Source: Nereida ignava
GTDB lineage: Bacteria > Pseudomonadota > Alphaproteobacteria > Rhodobacterales > Rhodobacteraceae
Assembly: GCF_001049735.1 (NCBI RefSeq)
Contig: NZ_CVPC01000002.1
Location: forward strand, 1-64,000
Length of the DNA: 64,000 nucleotides
Reading direction: 5' to 3'
The notes beneath the pieces were generated by a model. That model was not told the DNA's origin and searched no databases. It saw only the letters and a program-made list of their open reading frames with translations. A program made the translations under genes and the position numbers. Numbering within the stretch: position 1 is the stretch's first letter; each line of letters starts with the position of its first letter. Below are positions 1 to 29,414 of the stretch, one piece after another.

Positions 1-453
1 ATCGCCTTTAACTTCAAGCGCATAGTGATGACCGTTTCCCGACAGCATTGTTCCGGGCACAGCCACGTTGTGCGAGGCATGTTGGATCGCTTCAATCGGT
101 ACACCGGCGGCAATTTTACCCATTACAGGTAGTTCAACTGCTTGAATTTGCACAGATTGCGCCCGTGGTGGCGTCTGATCAGGTCGGTCACCATCAATAA
201 CTTTGGGTGTGAAGCCGGCAGTAGGGGCGCCGCCCATGCTTTCGGGCAGTTTCACAATTTCCAACGCACGGGCTTTGTGGGCCAAGCGGCGGATAAAGCC
301 GCGCTCTTCAAGGGCGGTGATCAAGCGGTGAATGCCCGACTTTGACCGCAAATCCAGCGCTTCTTTCATCTCATCAAAACTGGGGGGGACGCCGTCTTTT
401 TGAACACGTGCTTGAATGAACTCAAGTAAATCCAACTGTTTTTTAGTCAGCAT
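1..453 (-). CDS. lexA: LexA repressor, N-terminal part (cut by window edge)
   Basis: Only the first 151 codons are present; the rest lies beyond the left edge. LexA represses the SOS DNA-damage regulon and cleaves itself when RecA filaments form. The protein begins [14 protein letters not shown], and the winged helix-turn-helix fills about residues 1-65 ([13 protein letters not shown], then [10 protein letters not shown] as recognition region). A polar linker follows, then [11 protein letters not shown], whose Ala-Gly pair is the expected self-cleavage site; the catalytic Ser and Lys lie outside the window. The ATG at 453 gives the family's usual N-terminus. It follows moeA on the same strand after a 64-bp gap that holds a LexA box, so an autoregulated promoter of its own is likely. 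Confidence 0.95.
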
Positions 454-20369: not shown

Positions 20370-22121
20370 TTAGACCAGCACGCTGCCTTTTGCATCGATC
20401 GCACCTTTGGTGCTGGCGTCGCCCAAAAGCATCTCGTTATGTGCCTTGCCCGATGGGATCATGGGGAAACAGTTTTCGTGCTTTTCAACAAGGCAATCAA
20501 AAATGACCGGACCGTCGTAGGTGATCATTTCCATGATGGCATCATCCAAGTCCGCAGCATCTTCACACAAAATGCCCTTGGCACCGAAAGCTTCGGCCAG
20601 CTTTACAAAGTCGGGCAGGGCTTCTGACCAGCTTTGTGAATAACGCTCGCCGTGCAGCAATTCTTGCCACTGGCGGACCATTCCGAGCCGTTCGTTGTTC
20701 AGAATGAATTGCTTTACGGGCAAGTTGAATTGCACCGCTGTGCCCATTTCTTGCATGTTCATCATCCACGAGGCTTCACCCGCCACGTTGATGACCAGCG
20801 CATCACGGTGCGCGGCTTGCACACCGATTGAGGCAGGGGTGCCGTAGCCCATTGTGCCCAAACCACCGGACGTCATCCAACGGTTTGGGTCTTCAAACCC
20901 CAGGTACTGCGCCGCCCACATCTGGTGCTGGCCGACTTCGGTTGTAATGTAGCGGTCGTATTTCTGGGTCAGAGCTTCAAGGCGCTCAAGAGCGTATTGC
21001 GGCTTGATGACTTTGCCTTCTTGCTTGAACGACAGACAGCGCACGGCGCGCCAGTCTTCAATCTGGCTCCACCACTTGGTGAGCGCTTCTTTGTTTGTCT
21101 GGCGACCTTTTGATTTCCAAACGTTCAGCAGGTCCTCAAGCACATGAGCCACATCACCAAGGATCGGCATATCCACATGGATGACTTTGTTGATCGATGA
21201 GGCGTCGATATCAATGTGCGCCTTTTTCGAGCCGGGCGAGAACGCATCGAGGCGGCCCGTGATCCGATCATCAAAACGTGCGCCGATGTTGATCATCAAA
21301 TCGCAATCATGCATCGCCATGTTGGCTTCATAAAGCCCGTGCATGCCCAACATGCCCAGCCAGTTGTCACCGGACGCAGGGTAGCAGCCCAGTCCCATTA
21401 GGGTTGAGGTGATGGGGAAGTTTGTTGCCGCCACCAACTCGCGCAAAAGCTGTGACGCCGCGGGGCCAGAGTTGATGACGCCGCCACCCGAATAGATGAT
21501 CGGGCGCTTGGCCTTGGCCATCGCGTCGGCCAATTCCTCAATGGTGGCCATGTCGCCTTTCACTTGGGGCTGGTAGTGCGACTTGGTGGGCGCGGCAGAC
21601 TGATACTTGCCCTTGGCGAATTGGACGTCTTTGGGAATGTCCACAAGCACAGGGCCCGGACGGCCTGATGTCGCAACGTGGAACGCCTCGTGGATTGTGC
21701 CAGCAAGCTCATCGGTGTCTTTCACAAGCCAGTTGTGTTTGGTGCACGGGCGCGTGATGCCAACGGTGTCGGCCTCCTGAAATGCGTCAGACCCGATCAT
21801 GAATGTGGGCACCTGACCGGACAAAACGATCATTGGGATGCTGTCCAAAAGCGCATCCGTAAGGCCTGTCACCGCGTTTGTGGCACCGGGGCCCGAGGTA
21901 ACCAAAACAACACCGGGTTTGCCTGTCGCGCGGGCATAGCCTTCTGCGGCGTGGGTCGCACCTTGCTCGTGGCGGACCAAAATGTGGTTAATGTCGCTTT
22001 GCTGAAAAATCTCGTCATAGATCGGCAGCACCGCGCCACCGGGGTAGCCGAAAATCGTGTCGACGCCTTGTTCTTTAAGGGCTTGGATAACAATTTGGGC
22101 GCCTGTCATGGGTGCGGGCAT
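20370..22121 (-). CDS. ilvB: Acetolactate synthase, large (catalytic) subunit
   Basis: IlvB condenses two pyruvates (or pyruvate and 2-ketobutyrate) with thiamine diphosphate, the first common step to valine, leucine and isoleucine. The 583-residue protein has the catalytic Glu in LVRHEQGATHAAEGYARATG near residue 50, the FAD/central domain with GARFDDRITG near 280 and the TPP domain with GGLGTMGYGTPASIG near 420. The diphosphate-binding block reads VAGEASWMMNMQEMGTA, with Glu-Ala where many homologues have Asp-Gly. I start at the ATG at 22121 because GGAGAG lies 7 nt upstream; an ATG at 22142 is less likely. An attenuator-like leader precedes it. Confidence 0.96.
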   Translation of the reverse strand: MPAPMTGAQIVIQALKEQGVDTIFGYPGGAVLPIYDEIFQQSDINHILVRHEQGATHAAEGYARATGKPGVVLVTSGPGATNAVTGLTDALLDSIPMIVLSGQVPTFMIGSDAFQEADTVGITRPCTKHNWLVKDTDELAGTIHEAFHVATSGRPGPVLVDIPKDVQFAKGKYQSAAPTKSHYQPQVKGDMATIEELADAMAKAKRPIIYSGGGVINSGPAASQLLRELVAATNFPITSTLMGLGCYPASGDNWLGMLGMHGLYEANMAMHDCDLMINIGARFDDRITGRLDAFSPGSKKAHIDIDASSINKVIHVDMPILGDVAHVLEDLLNVWKSKGRQTNKEALTKWWSQIEDWRAVRCLSFKQEGKVIKPQYALERLEALTQKYDRYITTEVGQHQMWAAQYLGFEDPNRWMTSGGLGTMGYGTPASIGVQAAHRDALVINVAGEASWMMNMQEMGTAVQFNLPVKQFILNNERLGMVRQWQELLHGERYSQSWSEALPDFVKLAEAFGAKGILCEDAADLDDAIMEMITYDGPVIFDCLVEKHENCFPMIPSGKAHNEMLLGDASTKGAIDAKGSVLV

Positions 22122-22213
22122 CTTGGTCTCTCCGGTTTTCAACGTTTGCGCGGCTGGTTTCGCGTCAAATCAATAGCTAGCTCGTTTCAGGTTCAGAAAA
22201 GAAAAGGTGACAT

Positions 22214-22486: not shown

Positions 22487-23140
22487 CTACAAATTAGCCC
22501 CTGTGCCCTGCAGAACCCCGTGCTCAAGCGCGTAGCGGGTCAGCCCTGCGGTAGATGAAATACCCAGTTTACGTTTGATATTCTTGCGGTGGGTCTCAAC
22601 TGTGCGCACAGAAATATCCAACACGGCTGCGACGTCTTTGTTGGATTTCCCACTGGCAAGTTGCAGCAAAATGGTCTGCTCGCGCTCGGTCAGGATTTCG
22701 CGCCTGCCCGCAACCGCCGGTTCAAGCGAGCCTTTCGCGCCTGTGCACAAATACCGTCCACCAGACAACACCACATCGATGGCAGTTTTGATTTCTTCGG
22801 TGGGGACATCCTTCAGTAAATAGCCATGCGCGCCATAACTCAGCGCCGTTGAAATATATTCGGGCGTGTCGTGCATCGACAGGATCAGGATGTGGGTGTC
22901 GGGGTGTTGCTCAAGGATAATCTCGGTCGCGGAAAGCCCGCCCATGTTGGGCATGTTCAGGTCCATCAACACCACGTCCGGCTGCAACGTGCCTACTTGC
23001 GCGATGGCCTCTTGTCCGGATGATAGCGTCGCGACCACTTCAAGATCGTCATACGTCTCAAGGATCGATTGCACCCCTTGGGCAACCATCGGGTGATCAT
23101 CGACAATCATAACGCGGGTGAGCGGCGGTGTTTGGGTCAT
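22487..23140 (-). CDS. NarL/LuxR-type response regulator
   Basis: A 217-residue two-component regulator: receiver domain (about 8-125) with acidic pocket IVDDHPM, phosphoacceptor Asp near residue 60 in DVVLMDLNMPNMGG and the late Lys in GYLLKDV; then a LuxR helix-turn-helix (about 150-212) with LTEREQTILLQLASGKSNK and VRTVETHRKNIKRKLG. Its ATG overlaps the end of the histidine kinase gene by 4 bp, so they form a cognate pair. By position it should control the divergent TRAP transporter. It appears intact, although its partner kinase is truncated. Confidence 0.93.
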   Translation of the reverse strand: MTQTPPLTRVMIVDDHPMVAQGVQSILETYDDLEVVATLSSGQEAIAQVGTLQPDVVLMDLNMPNMGGLSATEIILEQHPDTHILILSMHDTPEYISTALSYGAHGYLLKDVPTEEIKTAIDVVLSGGRYLCTGAKGSLEPAVAGRREILTEREQTILLQLASGKSNKDVAAVLDISVRTVETHRKNIKRKLGISSTAGLTRYALEHGVLQGTGANL

Positions 23141-24300
23141 TGGGTAATCTTCGCTGGTGCTTCGGGACTGAGAAGGTGGGTAAGCGGCACAGTCGCCTCG
23201 ATGGTGGTGCCAGAGGCGGTGGACGCGATGTTCAGCGTGCCGTCAAGTTGCTCGATCCGCTCGGCCATATTGCGCAGACCAAGCCCCAAGCTGTTGCGAC
23301 CGCGTCCTGATTTCAGGCCAATACCGTTGTCCTTTACCATCAACGTCGCCCCTTGGCGGTGACCGGCCAGGCTCATCACCATTTTCGAGGCATCGGCGTG
23401 CCGCTCAATGTTGGTCAGAGCTTCTTGGGCAATGCGGTAAAGCGCAATCTTGCTGTCGGGATCAAGACGGTTGCGAAAGACGACAGTTTCAAACGTGCAT
23501 TCGATGCCCGTGCGCGCCTCAAAGTCATCGGTCAGCGATTGCAGGGCAGGGCCAAGCCCCAAGTCGTCCAAGATGCCCGGCCGCAAGTCACGGCTGATAC
23601 GGCGGACCTCACCAATGGCGGTGTTCAGCCCGTCGATCCCTGCACCAAGGCTGTCACCGGCGGCGGCATCGCCTTTGTTGAAACGTCTGCGCGCAAGCTC
23701 AAGTGAATAGCGTACGCCTACCAAGATCTGGCTGATGCCGTCATGCAACTCACGGGCGACGCGGCCACGTTCTTCTTCTTGGGTATCAAAAATTCGTTCC
23801 GTCAGTGCCTTTAGCTTGGTATCGGCCAAGCGCCGCTCTCGGATGTTTAGCACCATGCCAGAGGCAAAAACCGCCAAAAGCGCACCAAGCGTGATGAACA
23901 CAATATACTGGAACGTCCGATCGATGCGGTTCTCTACATCTGCGCGCGCTGCGGCCACCGTGCTTTGGATGTCATCGACAAAAATGGCGGTGCCGATGGC
24001 CCACTGCCAATCTTGCAGACCCAGCACATAGCTGATCGCGGGTTCTTTGGTGCCGGTGCTTGGCTTGGTCCATAAAAACGAATGATACCCACCACCCGTG
24101 CGCGCAATATCAATCAGCTTGTCGGTAACGGGCACGTCTTCGGGATCGGTCAGTCCGCTCCAGTCTTTGTTGATCAGAACAGTCTGACGCGGCGCCACAA
24201 GATTTGTGCCGTCGTAATCAAACACAAAGAAATAGCCGTCTTGGCCGTAGACCATCGCTGCAAGGCGCTGCTTTACCACGGCAACGGCGCGGCTCTGCAC
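23137..24300 (-). pseudogene. Sensor histidine kinase, 5' end missing
   Basis: The remaining 375 or so residues hold the second half of a periplasmic Cache sensor domain (from QRLAAMVYGQDGYFFVFDYD), one membrane segment (about 132-153 of the open frame), a HisKA_3 dimerisation domain with phosphoacceptor His in RVARELHDGISQ, and an ATPase domain with ALTNIERHADASK, VKDNGIGL and GLGLRNMAERIE. The N-terminal anchor, the first membrane helix and the start of the Cache domain are absent. The frame only begins at an arbitrary GTG at 24300 that already overlaps dctP sequence on the other strand. Recognisable kinase sequence ends near 24270. Either a deletion or an assembly error explains this. Confidence 0.85.
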
Positions 24301-24975
24301 GACGAGTTGGGCGAAATCTTTGGCCTGAAATCATTCTTGGGCGGCAACACAGGCGCACAAGCAGGTGGTTGGTTCCGTAAAGAAATCACCTCAGCTGCTG
24401 ATTTCAACGGTCTGAAATTCCGTATGCCAGGCCTTGGCGGTAAAGCACTGGGTAAACTGGGCGCATCTGTTCAGAACCTTCCAGGCGCAGAAGTGTACCA
24501 AGCTTTGGCATCTGGCGCGCTTGACGGCACCGAGTGGATCGGCCCATGGGCAGACGAAAAAGCCGGTTTCCAGGAGATCACAAAATTCTACTACGCTGCG
24601 GGCTTCCACGAGCCAGGCGCAGGTCTGTCAGTTGCAACAAACCGCGACGTATTCGACAGCCTGTCACCAGCGCACCAGAAGATCATCGAAATCGCATCTG
24701 CTGAAACACACCAGTGGAACCTTGCACAGTTCCTTAACAACAACGGTTCAGCGCTTCAGCGTCTGCAATCCGGCGGTGTTAAAGTTCTCGAATTCCCAGA
24801 TGACGTTTGGGATGCATTCGGTAAAGCAAGTGAAGAAGTCCACGCCGAAAACCTCGGTGATGACCTCTACAAAAAGGTCCACGATGATTACCAGGCGTCG
24901 CTCAAAGCGTCATCTGGCTGGATCAAGCAGTCTGAAAGTGCATACCGCACACAGCGCGACCGCGTTCTGGGCTAA
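24271..24975 (+). pseudogene. dctP: TRAP transporter substrate-binding protein DctP, 5' end missing
   Basis: Only the C-terminal 234 or so residues remain, from YHGNGAALHDELGEIFG through GNTGAQAGGWFRKEI, the ligand-binding Arg region FNGLKFRMPGLGG, GTEWIGPWADEKAGF, to the stop at 24975. Family members are about 350-370 residues, so the signal peptide and roughly a third of the protein are gone. The frame continues upstream to an ATG at 24082, but that part is antisense to the kinase gene and not DctP-like. Codon use (AAC, TTC, CCA) suggests a once highly expressed gene. It should supply solute to the DctQ/DctM permease behind it. Confidence 0.85.
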
Positions 24976-25192
24976 TCGCTCGATTGCAGGGGGGAGGGCG
25001 CGCGCGTCCTCTCCCAAGCGTTCGCATCTTTGGGTCGGCCAGCATGCGTTGGCCGCTCCAACTTTTACCGCATTATGATCTGACTGCATCCGCAACCATG
25101 GCCGATGGGCATTGGGGTTGCGTGGCACATCATAACTGCGCCGAAATTATTACGAGCCGCCGCTCCACGACTTGAAGGCTTAGGGGAATATC

Positions 25193-26107
25193 ATGCTCGA
25201 CGGGATCATCTGGTTTTTTCAAAACATCGCTTTGGCGTTTTACAACATCGGCTACGCGCTGTTGAACACTTCAAGCTGGCTTGACTGGCTGACGTGGGAC
25301 AACACCACCGAGGACAAACAATCCCTGATGCGGTTCATCTATTATGGCGGCTCTGTTGAGTTGTTCTTCGCGATCTTCACCCTGTTCATCTGTGTGACCA
25401 TCGCGGGCTTGCTGTACCGCCCATTCATGTGGGGCTGCGTGCGGGTATTTGAAGGGTTCGCCAACGCCGTGGGCCGTTTCTTTGCATGGGCCGGCCTTTT
25501 GATGGTGCTGCAACAGATCGTCATTGTATTTATGCAGCGTATTTTTGCAGCTTCTGAGTTGTCATTCGGGTTTGGCAAAAGCTTTGCCTTTGACATCAGC
25601 TGGTGGTCCGAAGAGTTGAAATTCTACAACGCCATCGTGGTGTGCCTGTGTGCGACCTATACATTTGTGCAGGGCGGCCACGTGCGTGTTGATTTGGTCT
25701 ACTCAGCCGTTTCCTTCCGCACCAAGCGCATCATTGATATGGTGGGCAGCATCATCTTTATGATGCCAGCGGCGGTGCTGACGTGGATGTATGGTTGGTA
25801 TTTCCTGTGGCGTCACCTTGTGGTGCCGAACCCATCCGCCTCCGACAGCCTTGACCGTTTGGTAAACAAAGCTCGCGCGCTGCGCTGGAATGTTGAGACC
25901 ATCGGTTTCTCGCCCAACGGGTTCAACGCATATTTCATGTTCAAGATTTTGCTGATCGTCTTCACGGCGATGGTCTTCTTGCAGGCGATTACCTTCTTTT
26001 ACCGCAGCTACCTTGAGTTGCGCGAAGGCCCCGAGGCCGAAGGCAAAAACCTTGACCGTGATAAACTTGGCGATGCTGACGCAGAGCTCGCCGCGAACAT
26101 CCATTAA
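25193..26107 (+). CDS. dctQ: TRAP transporter small permease DctQ, long form
   Basis: DctQ is the small membrane subunit of a TRAP (sodium-driven, binding-protein-dependent) transporter. At 304 residues it is much longer than the usual 160-200. Hydrophobic segments are seen near residues 10-25, 45-75, 95-115, 140-160, 178-205 and 245-270. A GGGGA sequence lies just before the ATG. The 217 bp after dctP contain no gene but a GC-rich inverted region near 24990-25015. It precedes dctM by 20 bp. It looks intact even though dctP is truncated. Confidence 0.88.
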   Translation: MLDGIIWFFQNIALAFYNIGYALLNTSSWLDWLTWDNTTEDKQSLMRFIYYGGSVELFFAIFTLFICVTIAGLLYRPFMWGCVRVFEGFANAVGRFFAWAGLLMVLQQIVIVFMQRIFAASELSFGFGKSFAFDISWWSEELKFYNAIVVCLCATYTFVQGGHVRVDLVYSAVSFRTKRIIDMVGSIIFMMPAAVLTWMYGWYFLWRHLVVPNPSASDSLDRLVNKARALRWNVETIGFSPNGFNAYFMFKILLIVFTAMVFLQAITFFYRSYLELREGPEAEGKNLDRDKLGDADAELAANIH

Positions 26108-26127
26108 GTTAAGAAAGATCTAGAGAC

Positions 26128-28482
26128 ATGTTATTCGGACTTGATGGCGTAGAAGTCGGCCTGATCATCGTATTCCTGACGCTCTTTGCGGGCATTTTGT
26201 CAGGCTTTCCCGTGGCTTTTGCAATCGGTGGCTCGGCCGTGATCTCATTCGGGATCATCGCGGCACTCGATAGCAACGGCCTGCTTATTCACCAAGCAAT
26301 CGACAAAGACAGCGCGCAATACGCGGCCCTTTTGGCCGAAGGGATACGCCCTGAGGCGGTCTCGATTTTCCGCTACCCTGAGTTGCCGCGCATCGGTGAG
26401 CCTGTGTTCTTGCAAGGGTGGGAAGTCGCCCTTGATCGTAATGTGTCGTTCATTGTGAACCGCATCAACGAACGCGTTTTGGCGGGCCAATCCATTGAAA
26501 CACTGTTGGCTGTTTTGATGTTTGTTCTGATGGGCATCACCCTTGAGCGGTCTAAAATTGCGGATGATTTGCTGAAAACCATGGCACGGGTTTTTGGCCC
26601 GCTGCCCGGTGGTTTGGCGGTGTCCGTGGTTGTGGTTGGTGCTTTCCTTGCGGCGTCCACAGGTATTGTGGGGGCAACCGTTGTGACCATGGGGCTTTTG
26701 TCTTTGCCCACAATGCTCAAGAACGGATATTCGCCGCAGCTTTCAACAGGTGTGATTGCCGCCTCTGGCACATTGGGTCAGATCATTCCGCCGTCCATCG
26801 TGATTGTGTTGCTTGGGACATTGGCGGGGGACTTGTATTCGGCAGCCCAAGAAGAGCGTGCCCAATTGGTGGGATGTTCTGATGCGCTGACATATCTGGG
26901 TGAGCCTGCGGTTGTATCCGTGGGCACGTTGTTCCAAGCGGCGCTGTTGCCAGGTATTTTGCTGGCGATGCTCTATGCGGGCTATGCGTTTGTCTACGCG
27001 CTTTTCAACCCGTCCAAAGCGCCAGCGGTCCAGATGGGCAGCAGCAACAGTGAGCCGATCACCCGCTCTGACGGGCTGACATGGTTCTTGGGTGCGCCGA
27101 TCATGTTGATCGGTGGTTTGATCTTGTTCGTGAACATCGGCCTTGTCGGCAGCCAGTCCACAATCGTTGACAGCTACACCGACGCGGGCACTACCGCAGA
27201 CCTTCGTACGTCTGTTGGCCCTGAATGTGCCGCGGCCATGATTGATCTGCACGGTCAAGCCGAATGGGACGAAGCGGTCGCACAACAGCAAGCCATCGAC
27301 GATGCGGGCGGAGTGCAAGAAAGCCGTCAGCTGACATCGGAAGAGCGTGAGACGCTGATCCTTGAAAAGATCGAAGCTGCTGCGCCAATCGGCACAGGTT
27401 TGGCTGTTTCAATGATGTTGCTGGGTCTGGTTCTGACCACTGCACGCGGTGTTGCACCATCAGCAGGACGCTTGCCGCTGATCGCAGGAACACTTGGCGC
27501 ATTGGGTGTGCTTTTTGTTGACGTCGCTCTTTTGGGGCCCACCACATCCGCCGGTGCGCGGCTGTTGCTGATCGCATTGCCTCTGGGCCTTGCCCTTTGG
27601 GGATGTGCGGGAGCGATGAAGATGCTGGCTAAAAATGAGTTGCTGCGCGTTGTCTTCCCGCCGTTGGTGTTGATCATTGCGGTGCTTGGCTCAATCTTGG
27701 GCGGCATCACCAACCCGACACCTGCTGCGGCACTTGGTGCGGGTGGGGCGATCATGCTGGCCGCGTATCGCCGCCTCGCGGATGAGGGGCGTTCGGGCAA
27801 GATGATCTTGATGACCACTTTTGCGATCATCGTGTTGATCCTTGTGGGCGTGAACTTTGATCTGCGCTTGGGCACAGGCGACACCAGTGTCGAAACCGTT
27901 TTGGCGTTCATCGTGGCTAAGGCTGCGTATCTATTCGCGATGTTCGGTATCCTGTTTGCCTGTTGGGTGCTGTTTACGGGCGGGGTCCTTAGCCCCGTGG
28001 TGCGCGAAACCGCCAAAGTCACCTCGATGGTGTTCACCATTTTGATCGGCTCACAGCTGCTTAACCTTGTGGTGATTTCATTTGGCGGCGAGCACTATAT
28101 CCAACAGTTCTTGCGCTCGTTCGACAACGAATGGACGGTGTTCTTGTTGGTTATGTTGGTGTTGTTCATTTTGGGCTTTGTTCTGGATTTCCTAGAGATC
28201 ATCTACATCGTCATCCCGATTGTGGGGCCGGTCATCTACGGCGGTACGATGGATCCGAAATGGGTAACAATCATGATCGCTGTGAACTTGCAGACCTCGT
28301 TCCTGACACCCCCGTTTGGCTTTGCGCTGTTTTATCTGCGCGGCGTGGCCCCGAAGGAAGTCACCACTGGCCACATCTACCAAGGTGTATTGCCCTTCGT
28401 GTTGATCCAAGTGGCAGGGCTGGCGCTGTTGGCGGCGTTCCCAAGCGTGGTGACAATTGTGCCGAACCTGATTGGTAACTGA
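26128..28482 (+). CDS. dctM: TRAP transporter large permease DctM, extended form
   Basis: DctM forms the transport channel. Classical DctM has about 430 residues; this one has 784. Recognisable DctM blocks are the start (residues 1-45), GITLERSKIADDLLKTMARVF to SGTLGQIIPPSIVIVLLG (about 130-225), SILGGITNPTPAAALGAGG near 525, and LDFLEIIYIVIPIVGPVI to SFLTPPFGFALFYLRG near 690-740. Between them are additional soluble stretches at about 50-115, 230-260 and 345-420 and several extra membrane segments. A long DctM paired with a long DctQ is a subtype found in marine alphaproteobacteria; the substrate is unknown. A terminator follows. Confidence 0.92.
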   Translation: MLFGLDGVEVGLIIVFLTLFAGILSGFPVAFAIGGSAVISFGIIAALDSNGLLIHQAIDKDSAQYAALLAEGIRPEAVSIFRYPELPRIGEPVFLQGWEVALDRNVSFIVNRINERVLAGQSIETLLAVLMFVLMGITLERSKIADDLLKTMARVFGPLPGGLAVSVVVVGAFLAASTGIVGATVVTMGLLSLPTMLKNGYSPQLSTGVIAASGTLGQIIPPSIVIVLLGTLAGDLYSAAQEERAQLVGCSDALTYLGEPAVVSVGTLFQAALLPGILLAMLYAGYAFVYALFNPSKAPAVQMGSSNSEPITRSDGLTWFLGAPIMLIGGLILFVNIGLVGSQSTIVDSYTDAGTTADLRTSVGPECAAAMIDLHGQAEWDEAVAQQQAIDDAGGVQESRQLTSEERETLILEKIEAAAPIGTGLAVSMMLLGLVLTTARGVAPSAGRLPLIAGTLGALGVLFVDVALLGPTTSAGARLLLIALPLGLALWGCAGAMKMLAKNELLRVVFPPLVLIIAVLGSILGGITNPTPAAALGAGGAIMLAAYRRLADEGRSGKMILMTTFAIIVLILVGVNFDLRLGTGDTSVETVLAFIVAKAAYLFAMFGILFACWVLFTGGVLSPVVRETAKVTSMVFTILIGSQLLNLVVISFGGEHYIQQFLRSFDNEWTVFLLVMLVLFILGFVLDFLEIIYIVIPIVGPVIYGGTMDPKWVTIMIAVNLQTSFLTPPFGFALFYLRGVAPKEVTTGHIYQGVLPFVLIQVAGLALLAAFPSVVTIVPNLIGN

Positions 28483-28598: not shown

Positions 28599-29414
28599 CT
28601 ATACTTTTGAAGACAGCGTATCAGGCAGCGAGATATTTGCGACTTGTTCGGCAATAGGATCAATGGACAGCGGGTGCGTCTCTTGCTCAAAATCGGCCAC
28701 GTTGTTCATGGTTTCCCACGCGCCACCACGGTAGACCTCAAGGCCCGAGAATTTCGCCTTGTAATCCATTTTGGGCGATCCAGGCACCCAATACCCAAGG
28801 TAAACATATGGCAGGCCTGTTTCCCGCGCGATCTCGATATGATCAAGGATGATGTGCATCCCGGGCGAGCTTGGCGCCGCATCAGGCGCAAAAAACGAAT
28901 AGACCATGCTCAGCCCGTCATCGAGCAGATCGGTCAGGCAAACAGCGGTCAAAACCTCGTCGCGGGTGTATTCAATCACGCGGCTGCGCACGGGTGTTTC
29001 TTCGACCATGGCGGCGAACTCGAATATGTCCATATCAGCCATGCCGCCATCTGCATGTCGCGTATCCAGATACGCGCGAAACAGGGAAAATTGCTCTTCG
29101 GTGGCCCAAGGGCTTGTCACGCGGCGGCGCATATCTTTGTTGCGGCTCATCACGCGTTTCTGGCTTTTGCTCGGCTTGAAATCAGCCACTTTGATGCGGG
29201 CGGACAAACACGCGGTACAATCAGCACACGACGGCCGGTAAAGCACATTTTGTGAGCGGCGAAAGCCTTGCTTGGACAGCCCGTCATTCAGCTTTTCTGC
29301 GCTTTCACCCTGCAATGCGGTAAACAGTTTACGCTCCATCCGACCCTCAAGATAAGGGCAGGGCTGCGGTGCGGTCACATAAAACTGTGGTGCAATTGGC
29401 AGGGTGTGGCGCAT
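28599..29414 (-). CDS. bpt: Aspartate/glutamate leucyl-tRNA-protein transferase (Bpt)
   Basis: Bpt attaches leucine to proteins with N-terminal Asp or Glu and so marks them for ClpAP degradation (bacterial N-end rule). The 271-residue protein has the ATE/Bpt signature: [16 protein letters not shown] near residue 19, the Cys pair in [18 protein letters not shown] near 60, [10 protein letters not shown] near 87 and [15 protein letters not shown] near 210. I use the ATG at 29414 ([12 protein letters not shown]), the usual N-terminus. It is convergent with dctM. Confidence 0.93.

Follow-up and report, generated by a model that had tools for sequence, protein, structure and literature searches.

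A junction truncating a divergent MctS-like sensor kinase and TakP-like TRAP binding-protein gene pair in a draft genome of Nereida ignava

The stretch of DNA analyzed here (the window) covers positions 1–64,000 of contig 2 in a Nereida ignava genome of 2,884,784 bases and 69 contigs, and very probably represents the CECT 5292T assembly or a trimmed form of it. At window positions 24260–24276, the interior of an MctS-like histidine kinase gene on the minus strand abuts the interior of a TakP-like TRAP binding-protein gene on the plus strand. The features of the locus are as follows:

22487–23140, minus strand: MctR-like response regulator of the NarL/LuxR type, intact, overlapping the kinase end by 4 bp
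23137–24276, minus strand: MctS-like sensor histidine kinase, 3' remainder, with part of sCache_2, HisKA_3, and HATPase_c kept
24082–24975, plus strand: chimeric open frame of 297 aa, in which antisense kinase sequence leads in frame into the DctP remainder; regarded as a chance product
24260–24276, no strand: putative deletion junction; the kinase side stops between 24260 and 24276, the DctP side begins at 24274, and ~930 bp are absent relative to MMG025
24274–24975, plus strand: TakP-like DctP solute-binding protein, 3' remainder, 233 residues versus 361 in MMG025
25193–26107, plus strand: DctQ small permease subunit, intact
26128–28482, plus strand: DctM large permease subunit, intact, 784 aa

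Within the genus, the locus was compared with that of Nereida sp. MMG025, the other of the two Nereida genomes in the collection (one being the window's own). A blastn comparison with 13 kb of MMG025 (L022) recovers colinear matches at window 20370–22152, 22500–24260, 24274–24975, 25183–28470, and 28618–29414, with others further left, and synteny is preserved on both flanks of the junction. Kinase homology on the minus strand extends to 24260 at the nucleotide level and to 24274–24276 at the protein level, while DctP homology on the plus strand begins at 24274. The anchors that lie 13 bp apart in the window are separated by 942 bp in MMG025, so that approximately 930 bp are missing. In MMG025, the DNA of this gap consists of the N-terminal coding part of the kinase, at least 170 bp between the ORFs, and the first 128 codons of dctP; the called MMG025 kinase ORF is probably too long, which would make the real intergenic gap larger than 170 bp. 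An earlier note, made from the DNA letters and their translations, had proposed a junction cutting both the kinase and the divergent DctP gene, together with the loss of a shared promoter region. The homology limits and anchor spacings bear out the first proposal, and the second holds for the region as intergenic DNA.

The kinase remainder has lost its start codon, its first hydrophobic stretch (as judged by eye), and approximately 90–98 N-terminal residues, the exact value depending on which MMG025 methionine is the start. A second hydrophobic stretch is kept (also by eye), as are positions 37–151 of the 155 in the sCache_2 Pfam profile. The earlier claim that the first membrane helix is gone agrees with this, but the Cache domain has lost about a quarter of its profile rather than half. 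The open frame of the kinase continues past the junction and into the DctP part, as far as a GTG at 24300. Among protein families, the intact MMG025 kinase scores highest against MctS (NCBIfam NF052443, 548 bits) and the window response regulator against MctR (NF052445, 268 bits); neither reaches the curated cut-offs of 700 and 300 bits, and the genes are therefore named only as MctSR-like. In contrast to MctS, the window kinase is cut.

On the other side of the junction, the DctP remainder lacks residues 1–128 of the 361 in MMG025, including a Tat-type signal and the N-terminal part, in agreement with the proposed loss; the intact MMG025 protein carries a twin-arginine signal. Over residues 1–352 (E 4e-69), full-length MMG025 DctP aligns with Rhodobacter sphaeroides TakP (PDB 2hzk; also 2hzl), a TRAP binding protein for alpha-keto acids. 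In the TakP structure as described, the contacts to pyruvate and its cation come from Tyr100, Gln156, Arg177, Glu214, Trp215, and Glu240, with domain I contributing only Tyr100 (PMC1839085). By alignment, the equivalents of Gln156, Arg177, Glu214, Trp215, and Glu240 fall within the part that the window DctP keeps, whereas the Tyr100 equivalent and the signal sequence are absent from it. With no signal and a broken domain I, the product of the remainder should not work. The Pfam DctP model matches ten places in the genome, and the window copy is the sole one without its N-terminal part. The locus thus retains the binding protein, DctQ, and DctM in one cluster, as expected of a TakP-type TRAP system, but with an incomplete binding protein that lacks the residues needed for export and one of its ligand contacts. 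The response regulator, DctQ, and DctM are all full length, as had been claimed. DctM is long (784 aa), and its Pfam DctM match is split in two stretches; because the MMG025 DctM is nearly equal in size (783 aa), its length is not a defect of the strain.

A broader comparison drew on 88 loci: the best 80 of 213 from a search of the collection, plus eight stretches of relatives' genomes. Two of these (L102, L104) are duplicate contigs, leaving 86 distinct loci. A divergent DctP gene lies upstream of the kinase in 86 of the 88 loci (84 of the 86 distinct), the exceptions being L033, where the contig ends, and L062. In these 86 loci, drawn from the best 80 of 213 and the eight stretches, the distance between anchors ranges from 868 to 2580 bp (83 of 86 within 868–1275) with a median of 927.5 bp. 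In the same set, the kinase frame remains open upstream of its anchor for at least 97 further codons in all 88 loci, and the DctP frame for at least 127 further codons in all 86. The window is thus the exception among these loci. It could be argued instead that the short arrangement is ancestral and that the relatives gained extra DNA. No supporting point was found for this reading, and with the long divergent arrangement in 84 of 86 distinct loci and frames open far upstream of the anchors, its probability is negligible. The truncated pair therefore has an intact, syntenic counterpart both in a close relative (MMG025) and in the great majority of the distinct loci, as expected of a pseudogene pair generated by deletion.

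The two ends can be placed within a few bases of each other. At the protein level, the kinase side extends to a valine codon (24274–24276) whose valine is conserved in 78 of 80 relatives. Two residues on, the relatives carry Q in 56 of 80, and four residues on they carry L in 80 of 80; the two window residues in between (K, R) occur rarely or not at all in relatives. The DctP end reads the same three bases, 24274–24276, as a tyrosine, which is shared by 71 of 78 usable matches (78 of the 80 loci being usable). Relatives encode this valine mostly by GTC (41) or GTG (32), so the true overlap of the ends is probably ~2–4 bp. Within the first 400 kb of contig 2, one 14-mer but no 16-mer from the 80 bases surrounding the junction occurs a second time, and a 1,001-base query over the junction has its own position as the single match in the assembly at E up to 0.001. 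With MMG025 as a stand-in for the ancestor, the longest word common to the 90 bases round each end is a 7-mer, situated away from the junction. Judged from relatives, these ends fit illegitimate joining, and not homologous recombination or repeat collapse. The earlier note gave an assembly collapse as its main alternative; collapse on a repeat was rejected, since no repeat that could mislead an assembler was found at these ends over the ranges just given. The microhomology suggested there, GCGCTGCT, was likewise rejected, as it lies entirely on the kinase side.

Searches of the assembly with DNA, the DctP N-terminus, and the kinase did not recover the missing segment at any other place. With 1,101 MMG025 bases covering the gap as query and E up to 10, a DNA search recovers 15 places. 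The flanks themselves account for two and are the only ones with E below 0.1; the other 13 are matches of 16–28 bases with E of at least 0.12. The DctP N-terminus finds four paralogues only (24–36% identity), and the full kinase finds only the truncated gene itself at E up to 0.01. According to its genome announcement, the CECT 5292T draft was assembled from MiSeq reads (ERR833218) with MIRA 4.0 at 77x average depth, and its 69 contigs (2,888,349 bp) include only those above 1,000 nt (PMC4770636). An orphan contig of 930 bp would have been dropped under that rule, and its absence therefore proves little. This bears on the possibility that the strain is intact and that the draft, through an assembly or library artefact, joined two unique sequences ~930 bp apart and lost the segment between them. 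A short-read draft of this kind, in which a lost piece would not show, lends that reading some plausibility, as does the reliance on a single assembly; the reported depth and the lack of any repeat found at the ends count against it. We regard an artefact as unlikely, but as the most serious competitor to a deletion in the strain. An independent assembly of the same type strain (DSM 16309T), FORZ01, is described as having 36 contigs, 2,837,944 bp, and 369x depth (PMC11943960).

The contig was also compared with MMG025 for similar junctions. The first 400 kb of contig 2 (L133–L152) are shorter than MMG025 by 400 bp or more at 20 places, against two in the opposite direction, counting matches on the colinear strand; this imbalance is consistent with a smaller genome. 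Nine of the 20 places were inspected, and eight are intergenic by inspection, the ninth being the junction reported here. In an ORF scan, 229 ORFs of MMG025 contig 1 had a relative on contig 2 at 60% identity or more, and 13 of them have coverage below 0.8. Two of these 13 are the kinase/DctP pair, and nine look like over-long starts, shadow ORFs, or the ends of contigs or fetched stretches; the others (G001:C1 322512 and 437410) are unclassified. The reverse scan places nine of 234 ORFs below 0.8 coverage, the chimeric frame at 24082 among them. Apart from the two unclassified cases, no second clear junction cutting conserved genes on both sides appears among the 229 ORFs, which argues against an artefact. 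A run of similar truncations along the contig is thus rejected within what was examined, namely nine of the 20 gaps and the ORF scan of 400 kb.

The age of the truncation was approached through sites conserved in at least 98% or 90% of the 40 most similar outgroup loci, counting changes found only in the window against those found only in MMG025. At the 98% level, the kinase remainder shows two versus zero changes (125 sites) and the DctP remainder zero versus zero (105 sites); at the 90% level, the counts are two versus one (192 sites) and three versus three (148 sites). Comparison genes at the 90% level (window/MMG025) give 3/3 for the response regulator, 5/4 for DctQ, 0/2 for DctM, 10/4 for ilvB, and 3/1 for the gene at 28599 (32 outgroups). 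No excess of amino-acid change is significant in any of the seven tests (lowest p = 0.18, for ilvB), and none of the translated genes contains a stop. The excess of conserved-site changes that would mark relaxed selection after inactivation was therefore not found. With dS to MMG025 of ~0.8–1.4, a rough expectation for remainders left unselected along the whole window branch is a few hundred amino-acid changes at the 230 sites of the 98% level, versus the two observed. By this rough arithmetic, which assumes equal branches, inactivation would date to about the final few per cent of the branch. The absence of both stops and excess change points either to a very recent loss, which may have happened in culture, or to an artefact; the lack of any sign of decay in the five genes fits the one as well as the other.

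The same conservation could be read as a sign that the truncated products are still used, with a shortened kinase, translated from a new start, acting as a soluble or wrongly inserted regulator, and a paralogous binding protein serving DctQM. Both remainders are indeed open and well conserved (dN/dS relative to MMG025 of about 0.18 for the kinase and about 0.07 for DctP), a GTG is available at 24300 in the kinase frame, and there are nine other DctP genes in the genome. However, recency explains the conservation equally well, even the nearest paralogues share only about 32% identity with intact MMG025 DctP, and the DctP remainder lacks both the export signal and the equivalent of the Tyr100 described for TakP (PMC1839085). 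Continued use is accordingly very improbable. Slightly less probable again is a selected change, in which the truncated kinase would act as an unregulated signalling protein and drive the intact MctR-like regulator, so that the circuit is rewired and not killed.

Recent bacterial pseudogenes formed by short deletions show clean breakpoints, no repeat, and no further decay. The window resembles them in its clean breakpoints, in the absence of any repeat found at the ends, and in the lack of further decay; it differs in that one event would here disable both members of a divergent gene pair as well as the intergenic region between them. The explanation we favor, and hold to be probable, is a recent non-homologous deletion in the sequenced culture that inactivated a keto-acid-type TRAP system along with its regulator. 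A single, very recent event of ~930 bp would have removed the start of the MctS-like kinase gene, the start of the TakP-like gene, and the intergenic region between them. In the kinase, the first membrane stretch and a portion of the sensor domain would be gone; in the binding protein, the export signal and much of the N-terminal domain. The response regulator and permease genes, though intact, would have lost their partners and probably their promoter, rendering the locus inactive. Because the response regulator and kinase overlap by 4 bp and dctQM follows dctP, the lost intergenic region probably held the promoters of all five genes. The earlier description of the regulator and permease as orphaned is thus correct as to their lost partners, and may understate the damage, as promoter loss is also possible. 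Comparison with relatives supports the single deletion of a divergent pair put forward in that note. The junction in the assembly, the missing segment, and the intact relatives are shown directly; the deletion's presence in the living strain, illegitimate joining as its mechanism, and the loss of function are inferred.

Such an event is ordinary, a gene-inactivating deletion. It is best explained as the recent loss of one TRAP system in a genome that its announcement describes as poor in TRAP genes, with 34 versus an average of 60 (PMC4770636). If the deletion is real, the Nereida type-strain draft represents an organism without a working keto-acid-type TRAP system and its regulator, and metabolic models or annotation transfer should regard neither DctQM nor the response regulator as functional. 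Should it prove an artefact, the locus is a warning that clean, repeat-free deletions can arise in such drafts. None of the matches listed in a full-text search for a published report of the truncation names the species; this search was not thorough, and no claim is made that the truncation is unreported.

Two minor observations concern gene calling in the window. The chimeric frame at 24082–24975, a product of the junction, may be called as a gene by an automatic annotator. At window 1–453, a gene on the minus strand corresponds to residues 1–151 of a 231-residue MMG025 ORF; it is cut by the contig edge, not by a deletion.
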